From: Bacteroidaceae bacterium
GTDB taxonomy: Bacteria > Bacteroidota > Bacteroidia > Bacteroidales > Bacteroidaceae
Assembly: GCA_017617635.1 (NCBI GenBank)
Contig: JAFZVW010000030.1
Span: forward strand, 1-52,572
DNA length: 52,572 bases
Direction: 5' to 3'
Position numbers and translations under genes: made by a program. This document shows, piece after piece, positions 49,302 to 52,572 of this stretch; the first letter of the stretch is position 1; each line of letters starts with the position of its first letter. The notes under the pieces are model-generated. The model saw only the letters and a program-made list of their open reading frames with translations, was not told where the DNA came from and did not search any database.

Positions 49302-51506
49302 ATGATAATTATCCCGTATAGTATAACTCATCGCGATGCGTGGAACGACTTCGTAGCCGGCAGCAAGCAGGGTACGTTTCTGCTGAATCGTAATTTCATG
49401 GACTATCATGCCGACAGGTTCTTCGACTGCTCGATAATGATCTGTCAGGCTGATGATGACAAGGGTGCTTATACATCCACAGAGCAGAATTTCGGTGATA
49501 TTATTGCAGTAATGCCTGCCAATTGGATAGAGGAGACCCAAACCGTCGAATCTCACGGCGGTCTGACATACGGAGGTCTGCTTACCAGGGAGGACATAAC
49601 CGAAACAGAGGTTCTGCAGGTTCTGCAGGCAGCCTTTACATACTATCGTGAAATGATGGGAGCCCGTGTCCTGCTATATAAGCCTATACCTTATATATAT
49701 AGCACTCTTCCCAGTGGCGAAGACCTGTATGCATTATTCCGAGCCAATGCCCAGCTTTCCCGCCGTCTGGTCAGTTCTGTTGTAGACATGCGGCACCAGC
49801 TGAGAATGAGCGCATTACGCACCAATGGCGTAAAGAAAGCACTTGCCAGTGGTTTCTACATCGACCGTATGCAGGAGGGAGACCGCGAAACGCTGAATGA
49901 ATTCTGGGTACTTATGGAAGATATGCTCATGCGTCACCATAAGGCCAGTCCTACCCATACCGTTGACGAAATCAGTCTCCTGATATCGCGCTTCCCCCGT
50001 GAGATCAAGGTATATATCGTACGTAATTCGTCCCTGCGCATAGTAGCCGGTGTCATAGTCTTTGAAACCGGAAGCGTTGCCCATGTACAATACATTGCCA
50101 GCAGTACCGAGGGTATTGAAAACGGTGCTCTCGACCTCCTGTTCCGTCATCTGATTACCGAGCGTTACAAGAACATGGATTACCTGGATCTCGGTACAAG
50201 CAACGAGGCACATGGGCATATCCTTAACGAGGGACTTATTGCTAAGAAGGAAAGCTTTGGCGGACGTGCTGTCTGTTATGACACCTATCGCGTAATGTTG
50301 GACGAACCAGGTATTGCCACCATGTGTGACTTGCATAAACCAAAGGATAAAAAGAAACAGATTAAATACCTGGACTTAAAAAAGTTAAACCATACTTACG
50401 AACCATATCTCTCATACGAGATCAATCGTGTGACACAGAGCGGTTTTTATCTCCTCGGACAGGAAAACCAGCGCTTCGAACAGACGTGGAAAAACTATGT
50501 CCGTACCCGTAACTGTGTACTGACCGGTAATGGTCTTGAGGCTCTTGTGCTTATCCTCAGGGCCTATATGCAGCTTAATGGATGGAGACGCGGTGACTAT
50601 GTTCTTGTCCAGGGCAATACCTATATTGCGACAGTAATGGCAATTCGCGAGGCAGGTCTGACTCCCGTCCTTTTTGATCCTGCCTACCATCCTGTGCACG
50701 GAATGCCGATGCTGGATTATGACCATATCGGGCGTATTCTTGCCAAATTGGATTCCTCGCATTCCCTGCGTGCCATTATGCCGGTGCATCTTTATGGAAG
50801 AGTATGGGATATGGATAATGTACGCAAGTTTGCATCACTTCATGACATAAAAGTAATCGAGGATGCCGCACAGGCACATGGGGCAGAAATCAACGGCGTA
50901 CGTGCAGGAGCTTTGGGCGACGCAGCCGGATGGAGTTTCTATCCGGGCAAGAACCTTGGAGCTCTGGGTGATGCCGGCTGCGTTACAACCAATGACGATA
51001 AATTGGCAGACCTGATTCGTACAATGGCAAATTACGGTAGCCGCGAGAAGTATGTCAACGAGGTTGAAGGAATGAACAGCCGCGTGGACGAAATCCAGGC
51101 AGCAATTCTCACTGTCAAGTTCCCCTATCTGAATATCGAAAACAAACGTCGCCGCGAAATAGCAGACCGTTATATGACCGGTATTGACAATCCTCTGATT
51201 AAGCTCCAGCAACGACCTGGTAATCCCGAGGAAAATGTATGGCATATATTCCCCGTGTATTGCGCTGAGCGCGATAAGCTGCAGGCATATCTCAAGGAGA
51301 ATGGGGTAGAGACGCTGATACATTATCCTATCCCGCCGCACAGGCAGGCTTCACTTCATGGCGAAGGGAAACTCCTGATTCCCGAAAGTCTTCCTGTGAC
51401 TGAAAAGGAAGCAAGGGAAGAACTCTCGCTACCTGTTTCACCTGTAATGTCCAATGACGATGTAGATAGCGTCATCGCCCTCTTGAATCGTTTTGTGGCA
51501 CAATAG
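49302..51506 (+). CDS. FemAB/GNAT-like acyltransferase fused to DegT/DnrJ/EryC1-type aminotransferase
   Basis: A 734-residue two-domain protein. Residues about 1-335 resemble the FemAB-like GNAT fold (GGLTYGGLL near 87, [12 protein letters not shown] near 305). Residues about 355-734 are a PLP-dependent sugar aminotransferase: [11 protein letters not shown] near 443, [17 protein letters not shown] near 520, Lys550 in [14 protein letters not shown] as the Schiff-base residue, and the C-terminal HYPIPPHRQ. Probable product: an N-acylated amino sugar nucleotide for surface glycans, amination and acylation being done by one chain (inference). It stands alone. Confidence 0.88.
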
Positions 51507-51530
51507 TATACGGATACATCCCCACGTTTA

Positions 51531-51579
51531 TCTGCACTCGCTCACGAAGCCTGTGCGGATTTTTTTTTGATTTATTTCC
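51531..51579 (+). repeat. Direct repeat 1, terminator-like
   Basis: TGCAC and GTGCG enclose TCGCTCACGAAGCCT and are followed by T9. It closely matches the copy at 51951-52003 and serves as the probable terminator of the fusion gene, 24 bases after its stop. Confidence 0.7.
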
Positions 51580-51590
51580 TGTAATCTGTT

Positions 51591-51917
51591 TTGTTGCAAG
51601 AAAATGAGAATGACTACATCTGTCTGACCGATATGGCCAGATATAAAGATAAGCAGCGTACGGACTACATTATCCAAAACTGGTTGCGTTCTCGCAGCAC
51701 AATTGAATATCTTGGTGTGTGGGAGCAATTGCACAATCCCAATTTTAATCCCATCGAATTCGATGGGTTTAGAAACCAAGCTGGGTTGCACTCTTTTAGT
51801 CTTGTCCGTTACGATGTCTTGCACCGCATGGCTGAGGAACAGCTAAAGGTTCTCAACGAGCAAAATGCAGAATATCGCTTTAAAAAACTGACGAGTAGCA
51901 CGGACTTAATAGAGTAA
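51591..51917 (+). pseudogene. KilA-N domain gene remnant
   Basis: The 108-residue frame begins only at TTG after an in-frame stop at 51582. It shows the KilA-N core (NDYICLTDMARYKD, TDYIIQNWLRSRSTIEYLGVWE, FDGFRNQAGLHSFSL) and then jumps to a C-terminal-like segment (DVLHRMAEEQLKVLNEQN). The middle of the domain (the usual GRYGGTYAH and FASWISPEFK region) and the N-terminus are gone, so this is probably a deletion remnant of a phage-type gene. It lies exactly between two direct repeats. Confidence 0.65.
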
Positions 51918-51950
51918 CAGAGTTTCAACCTCTCCCAGAGATTCTGATAA

Positions 51951-52003
51951 TATCCGCACTTGCTTATGAAGCCCGTGCGGATTTTTTTTTTGATATAATT
52001 TTC
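51951..52003 (+). repeat. Direct repeat 2, terminator-like
   Basis: CCGCAC-TTGCTTATGAAGCCC-GTGCGG followed by T10 forms a good intrinsic terminator. It shares most positions with 51531-51579, including the tail after the T run (TGATATAATTTTC against TGATTTATTTCC). Confidence 0.75.
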
Positions 52004-52034
52004 ATTCCATCATCAACTTTTCCTTAAATTTTAT

Positions 52035-52042
52035 TATTTTTG
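52035..52042 (+). promoter_or_regulatory. -7 box of the rod-like RNA
   Basis: TATTTTTG matches TAnnTTTG. No TTTG is seen at -33. Transcription would start near 52049. Confidence 0.5.
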
Positions 52043-52049
52043 CAATTGC

Positions 52050-52376
52050 ATCTGCCCGCTGTGGCTATGAGGCACACTGTGGTGTGTGGAGTCATTGGGT
52101 GGAGCACTACATATTGAAAGGCGTTACTGACGCTTTGTTTTTGGACTCTTCGAACTACCACAATCGAAATAGCAATCCAAGACAAATGCAGGGGTGACTG
52201 CCACGGGGTGTAGTATATACTCTCCGTAGTGTGCTGCGAGGCTCGTGTAGCCTCAACGCACACTTTACGGGTGTCTATATACTCCAACGTGGGTGTTTAC
52301 TCTGTTTGTTCTTTTGCTATTGGCTGTGGTAGGCCAGAAGAGTGGGACAGGCAGAAGTTAAGCACCCACTCTTTTT
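52050..52376 (+). ncRNA. Candidate rod-shaped structured RNA, about 325 nt
   Basis: No plausible gene lies in 51918-52572. From 52145 to 52343 successive helices form one rod: ACTCTTC 52145-52151 with GAAGAGT 52337-52343; CTACCACA 52155-52162 with TGTGGTAG 52325-52332; AATAGCAA 52168-52175 with TTGCTATT 52314-52321; AAGACAAA 52179-52186 with TTTGTTCTT 52305-52313 (one bulge); CCACG 52201-52205 with CGTGG 52288-52292; GTATATA 52213-52219 with TATATAC 52276-52282; CCGTA-TGTGC 52224-52234 with GCACA-TTACGG 52258-52270; GAGGCT 52238-52243 with AGCCTC 52249-52254. A smaller hairpin region (52072-52136) precedes it. Length and shape recall 6S RNA or a retron-type ncRNA, but I recognise no signature of either. 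Confidence 0.55.
52338..52376 (+). terminator. Terminator of the rod-like RNA, competing with its closing helix
   Basis: AAGAGTGGG (52338-52346) pairs with CCCACTCTT (52364-52372), and T residues continue to 52376. The left arm also forms the outermost helix of the rod (52337-52343), so the two pairings exclude each other. Confidence 0.65.
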
Positions 52377-52572
52377 GTATGTAGTAAACACATGAAATCA
52401 AACCAATCTGACTTTGGGTGTTTGTCAGAACAAAAAGAAAAGGACAAGGCAATAAAGAGTAACTGACAAACAATAATACGAGATTCATTTCACTTCTGGT
52501 GACATAGAACTGGAAAACTAATACAACGCAGAAGCAGAAACGATAATGACCTCGCACGAACAGCGTGGGGGA

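Follow-up and report, generated by a model that had tools for sequence, protein, structure and literature searches.

What is encoded in the last few hundred bases of the window, a stretch of 52,572 nucleotides that is the whole contig C58 of a Bacteroidaceae genome? The preliminary description, made from the letters alone, had drawn a rod-shaped RNA there, running from a promoter box to a T-tract hairpin in a gene-free region, and had likened it to 6S RNA or the ncRNA of a retron. The region is free of genes as far as it can be seen, but this is at least partly owed to the end of the contig at 52572: the sequence breaks off 143 bases past hairpin D, before the gene served by the leader. The rod itself is real. 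Positions 52145-52343 fold into a single interrupted rod of −89.2 kcal/mol, compared with −56.0 kcal/mol (sd 4.1) for 200 dinucleotide shuffles (z = −8.16), and none of the shuffles was equally stable; for the wider stretch 52035-52376 z was −5.1. The promoter box and the T-tract also held up, but the idea of a stand-alone RNA did not, since the rod forms the centre of a roughly 340-nt 5′ leader, which continues past the T-tract. The 3′ end had been set at 52376, which is too early, as P1 pairs across it and hairpin D lies beyond it (Table 1). According to its sequence, the rod region is best read as a new family of cis-acting RNA switch.

Table 1 Parts of the leader at the 3′ end of the window
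Feature	Position	Strand	Basis or partner
TAnnTTTG box (TATTTTTG)	52035-52042	+	sequence; box ahead of 140/152 homologues
P0, 5′-terminal hairpin	52048-52105	+	predicted fold of 52048-52376 and 52048-52435
P1 5′ arm (ACTACATA)	52106-52113	+	partner 52378-52385
P2 hairpin and adjoining GTTTTTGG	52117-52144	+	best-conserved block, basis of model R1
Rod, state I	52145-52343	+	z = −8.16 and covariation
H5 strand, basal rod helix (CTACCACA)	52155-52162	+	partner H3 at 52325-52332
Strand A	52188-52205	+	state I partner of B
Strand B	52288-52309	+	partner A (rod) or C; covariation
GGC-H3-GCC	52322-52335	+	H3 strand and flanking 3-bp helix, nested within B:C in state II
Strand C	52347-52369	+	partner B (state II) or, partly, loop of D
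T-run (TCTTTTT)	52370-52376	+	directly 3′ of B:C
P1 3′ arm (TATGTAGT)	52378-52385	+	past T-run
Hairpin D	52407-52429	+	loop 52416-52423 complementary to C 52360-52367
Second switch domain, type beta, start only	52430-52572	+	likeness to L169; ended by contig end

The element matched no family of Rfam 15 at gathering score in the window, and a permissive search of 51500-52572 gave six chance-like hits, all far under the gathering scores. In 20 related loci only three tRNAs were found, all at a distance from the element. The preliminary description, which had recognized no known family, was right in this respect. The searched portions of the literature on Bacteroidetes and Prevotella structured RNAs, leaders, attenuation and restriction-modification, including PMC8040213, PMC11109978 and PMC7366714, do not describe the element; the supplements of PMC8040213 hold thousands of candidates, among which it may be listed without a name.

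Homologues are numerous and divergent in sequence. By BLAST, the genome of the window contains another copy that is 87% identical, and copies are present in 14 of 101 genomes, this one among them. Thirteen of these belong to the genus, the other one (G078) to a different family of the same order, and since its copy (L011/L027) is complete, a strict restriction to one family was discarded. A model, R1, was built from 16 sequences of the conserved 5′ block. Within the genus, 82 of 139 genomes had matches at E ≤ 0.001, up to seven per genome; the window's genome has five, all recovered with the full-length profile. At E ≤ 1e-5 there were matches within the family in 114 of 301 genomes, representing 21 of 30 genera, and across the class in two of 295 genomes, the window's own and one more of the family. 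R1 relies largely on sequence and the filters were strict, so distant copies may have escaped. Scanning named genomes with a pattern returned 92 stretches, and the 80 listed with names are mainly from Prevotella, Prevotellaceae, Bacteroidaceae and Bacteroidales MAGs, many of rumen origin. The isolates Prevotella communis E15-14 and Prevotella sp. ne3005, MN60 and HUN156 are among them, as is one MAG labelled Paludibacteraceae; in P. communis E15-14 (L140/L230) a C5-methyltransferase-like ORF comes after the leader. Finally, searching the fetched loci with a profile of 14 copies yielded 181 distinct copies, of which 158 span most of the profile; 60 of the fetched copies come from the higher part of the R1 matches listed for the genus.

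These copies lie in front of genes. After removal of 21 copies without an intact 3′ end, 160 remained, and from these, four at contig ends and three for which no ORF was called within 700 nt were set aside. For each of the remaining 153, the first downstream ORF of 80 aa or more was taken from plain six-frame calls, and 150 of these ORFs share the strand of the leader. The binomial p for this bias is about 1e-40, a value that assumes independent copies, which paralogues are not. The median distance from leader to ORF is 70 nt (151 distinct proteins). The TAnnTTTG box, which we take to be a Bacteroidetes-type promoter element, precedes 140 of 152 testable homologues, compared with 8.8% of shuffled stretches, at a median of 97 nt ahead of a conserved GCTTTG. 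The T-run has at least four T in 155 of 156 copies and at least five in 136 of 156. Judged by its sequence context, the element is thus in the 5′ leader of a gene, where an attenuator has to be. A simple promoter/terminator scan with a loop limit of 8 nt listed P2 and not B:C, whose loop is long (about 37 nt, partly folded). The portion of PMC7366714 consulted gives a median 5′ UTR of 32 nt for B. thetaiotaomicron, and by this measure a leader of more than 300 nt is unusual. Altogether, we are nearly certain that the element is a structured 5′ leader of a new kind.

Upstream of the leader, the window has two 40-bp direct repeats (51529-51568 and 51951-51990) that are 88% identical, each a hairpin with a T run. 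They flank a small KilA-N ORF (51591-51917), and the second one adjoins the promoter region of the leader.

The hairpin before the T-tract shares the 3′ strand of the rod, and the two are therefore mutually exclusive. Both folds were examined in a MAFFT alignment (A6) of leaders of the window's subtype: of 77 copies, seven were removed as more than 88% identical and L055 was dropped because its anchor was not found, which left 69. In state I (rod with P1, P2, D and C:D), 83.8% of the cells are paired compared with 77.1% after shuffling, none of 500 shuffles was as high, and 59 of 104 pairs have double changes. Partners slid by one to three columns are paired in only 35-49%; as the structure of the rod follows the prediction for the window itself, this comparison favours the rod over its slid versions. 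In state II (B:C with GGC:GCC), 92.5% of the cells are paired compared with 88.6% after shuffling, again with none of 500 shuffles as high. Homologues with compensatory changes thus exist, and for both folds. Since A and C compete for B, the rod and B:C cannot coexist.

The helices contribute unequally. The basal rod helix with H5:H3 has double changes in all 15 pairs, and B:C (94 and 97% of the cells paired) in 10 of 18. C:D is paired in 90% of the cells, with double changes in six of eight pairs, and the stem of D in 77%, with four of six. In A:B (helices 8 and 9, 90-92%) the changes are mostly one-sided; P2 (97%) shows little variation; the GGC:GCC helix (93%) has double changes in one of three pairs. 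P1, whose arms are inverted repeats, is paired in 84% of the cells and has double changes in three of eight pairs, its two inner pairs being weak. The middle helices of the rod (5-7) are paired in only 72, 55 and 49% of the cells, so that the drawn rod stands but not the conservation of each of its helices.

A further view comes from duplexes with exchanged partners (70 leaders): A:B, B:C, C:D, H5:H3 and P1 were significant, A:D, B:D and P1:D were not. Over 153 leaders of all subtypes, strand C matched the D region of its own leader strongly in 78%, compared with 31% for the D of other leaders and 11% for shuffled D, and a stem of 5 bp or more encloses the matching segment of D in 78%, compared with 38% with shuffled flanks. 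What the comparative analysis demonstrates is a 5′ leader in which B can pair with A or with C and in which C is complementary to the loop of D. Predicted energies place the two folds close to each other: in transcripts from P1 to the T-run the rod was favoured in 36 of 69 leaders and B:C in 33, at a mean cost of B:C of 3.3 kcal/mol (sd 3.9). For the window, the lowest-energy fold of 52048-52376 is B:C, that of 52035-52376 is the rod, with B:C in the centroid; the balance apparently hinges on the assumed start. Pairing of C gains 9.2 kcal/mol compared with 7.2 for shuffled C, which is a weak control. Two exclusive folds, one of them with a terminator-like hairpin and a T-run, as in an attenuator, are found in the first domain by covariation and in the second domain described below by sequence and prediction. 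The leader thus looks like a genetic switch, and very probably it has two states.

Two variants were seen among the copies. One (L147, 6570-6911) is a mosaic that combines the H5 strand of one subtype with the H3 strand of another, which breaks the basal helix. The other is a second subtype (GTCGCTATATATAG ... GTTCTTGA) with a short apical hairpin (L013, L019, L050, L056, L059-L062 and others) that by reading is mostly ahead of predicted lipoproteins or surface proteins and not of restriction-modification genes.

Of the 152 leaders for which a gene is present, 42 continue into a second domain, which is of type alpha in 27 and of type beta in 15. In alpha (24 aligned), the predicted fold is a rod followed by a hairpin before T-run and ATG, and the T-run ends at most 3 nt from the ATG in 24 of 27. 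An inner rod helix shows compensating variation (CG in 12 and GC in 12 at one pair). Double changes were seen in 11 of 47 pairs, none of them within the terminator hairpin, which hardly varies and is thus without covariation support. In beta, a CCCC..GGGG-T hairpin is present in 14 of 15. As read from the sequence, with pairs not counted, B2 (GGGCGUGG) is able to pair with C2 (CCACGCCC), and a GAA-H5 ... GGC-H3-GCC motif is common to domain 1 and alpha, with GCG..CGC in beta.

The doubled leaders have one type of gene behind them. By motif, a C5-methyltransferase follows 38 of the 42 two-domain leaders but only 7 of 110 single ones (Fisher p = 4e-24), a comparison made within one set. The remaining four are restriction-modification genes by profile, namely two C5-methyltransferases (L143, L142), a D12 adenine methyltransferase (L080) and a HaeIII-type endonuclease (L067), and therefore all 42 second-domain leaders precede restriction-modification genes. 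The window enters a domain of this kind: its positions 52391-52572 are 98.4% identical over 182 nt to L169, whose leader runs on to a C5-methyltransferase. The gene missing from the window is thus probably a C5-methyltransferase. At the L067 locus, the HaeIII-type endonuclease and a C5-methyltransferase-like ORF are preceded by a pair of leaders spaced by about 1 kb, of which the upstream one is incomplete at the 3′ end.

Taken over all leaders, the genes are more diverse. Pfam families were listed for the 151 first downstream proteins in two batches (23 of 23 and 25 of 28 families), and because families overlap on one protein the counts are not additive: 47 C5-methyltransferases (37 of 75 and 10 of 76), four N4/N6, two D12 and two Eco57I methyltransferases, three restriction endonucleases (two TdeIII, one HaeIII), five proteins with ResIII/SNF2 domains, seven acyltransferases, nine BspA-type LRR proteins, three DUF2971 proteins and several glycosyltransferases and esterases. 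Two helicase-like proteins have a distant likeness to defence helicases. The share of C5-methyltransferases varies with the sampling, from 6 of 79 copies obtained by model or BLAST to 38 of 73 obtained by a window-like pattern, so no claim is made here that restriction-modification genes follow the majority of leaders. From its sequence context, the leader appears to open many mRNAs of Prevotella from the rumen and of related bacteria, and these are often the messages of anti-phage or cell-surface genes.

Some loci have features of their own. Six single-domain leaders (L148, L152, L178, L180, L198, L202) are followed by a small conserved protein of about 90-106 aa (MAKYS/T..), which in L152 had no match in NCBIfam or PADLOC; the ORF after it in L202 looks like a C5-methyltransferase. 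In the chimeric copies L029 (= L018), L047, L240 and L022 (= L006), the leader is intact up to the middle or the apical part of the rod and then gives way to an open frame. By reading, the frames in L029, L047 and L240 have the appearance of restriction or methyltransferase genes without a start, and L022 is ahead of an ORF resembling a DNA methyltransferase. The breakpoints differ, and deletion, rearrangement or assembly error are all possible.

How could such a leader work? With a probability of roughly 0.6, we propose that it acts in cis, switching between its exclusive folds and thereby controlling the gene behind, and with similar reserve we lean towards transcription attenuation as the output. 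B:C would then be an intrinsic terminator that may form during transcription. As long as the rod holds, RNA polymerase would pass the T-run; after read-through P1 would close and D would capture C, keeping it off B. In the leaders of restriction-modification genes the second domain would repeat the plan with a terminator-like hairpin near the start codon, giving two checkpoints. Candidates for contact sites are the block of P2 and GTTTTTGG and the GAA / GGC-H3-GCC motif, which recurs. Against attenuation speaks that the 3′ arm of P1 and hairpin D sit beyond the T-run and thus cannot act ahead of the termination decision. The main difficulty is that B:C as terminator makes the rod ON in domain 1 and OFF in domain 2, which is awkward.

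This sign problem disappears if the same leader acts on translation or mRNA stability, the main rival of attenuation, with rod and C:D as OFF, since the complex would sit ahead of the start codon, and B:C as ON in both domains and with the T-run of domain 1 not being a working terminator. In line with this, the median gap between the end of D and the ATG is 17 nt (8 to 59) in the 19 leaders with a clear D match, and in some leaders (L127, L152 and L144, for instance) strand C is a better match to D than to B. Yet tandem leaders have a conserved D in domain 1 although about 200 nt or more separate it from the ATG, and all but one of the 156 copies have retained the T-run; we consider a translational or stability output rather unlikely. 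Processive antitermination through the operon, with the leader binding RNA polymerase or a NusG-like factor, would suit a large structured RNA right behind a promoter and the length of some first genes, and such systems typically act on surface and defence genes, but it would make the covarying exchange between B, C and D superfluous and is improbable.

Still further down the scale is a mobile DNA element that folds as a single strand, be it a MITE, the end of a transposon or a site of recombination. The presence of 87% identical paralogues within one genome and of mosaic and truncated copies would fit, but the orientation to the gene is fixed, the promoter box is conserved and the copies, far from being dispersed and identical as in a MITE, have diverged with compensatory changes. 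Moreover, BLAST of 52035-52400 against phage and plasmid records gave no match, nor did two exact 5′-block patterns, which miss variants, in viral contigs; a mobile element is thus very improbable. The likeness to 6S RNA or a retron ncRNA suggested in the preliminary description comes from the long interrupted rod and the promoter-like box of its own. The 6S models of Rfam did not match, the distribution is patchy with several copies per genome instead of about one, and the copies are tied to many different genes on the same strand; the Pfam families listed for the first proteins downstream include no reverse transcriptase. We give these two identities practically no chance.

The leader can also be set beside known systems. 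In trp-leader attenuators, strands 1:2 and 3:4 pair in alternative to 2:3, and A:B and C:D versus B:C correspond to this order, with a terminator-like hairpin before the gene that is clearest in the second domain. However, in domain 1 the T-run follows B:C and not C:D, D meets C via a hairpin loop, the leader exceeds 300 nt and is often doubled, and unsystematic inspection noticed no conserved upstream reading frame. Riboswitches, tandem ones included, are likewise large conserved 5′ leaders with a conserved block, alternative folds and several genes, but the leader described here has no Rfam match and the downstream genes share no pathway, so that there is no obvious metabolite. The processive antitermination RNAs put and EAR are also structured RNAs near the promoter of long accessory genes; in contrast, the leader has the exclusive folds B:C and A:B in addition to C:D, and a sequence relation was assessed through Rfam. 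Shared control of restriction-modification genes has a precedent in RptR, according to the consulted portion of PMC12255303 a repressor protein and shared regulator of such genes, whereas a conserved leader RNA is proposed here.

It is tempting to speculate that the leaders form an RNA regulon of immune genes, in which the switch, doubled to two checkpoints on restriction-modification genes, reads a common cell state such as phage takeover or a new host. This idea is tentative and rather doubtful at present. If true, the regulon would set when DNA methyltransferases, restriction enzymes and surface-modifying proteins are made. To our knowledge, the timing of restriction-modification genes is known mainly through proteins, for example repressors and C proteins. 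A leader RNA on these genes would place control of bacterial immunity at the level of RNA, in a group of bacteria that is abundant in the rumen, and with the exact strands for mutation and compensation (A, B, C and D) named, this can be tested directly.
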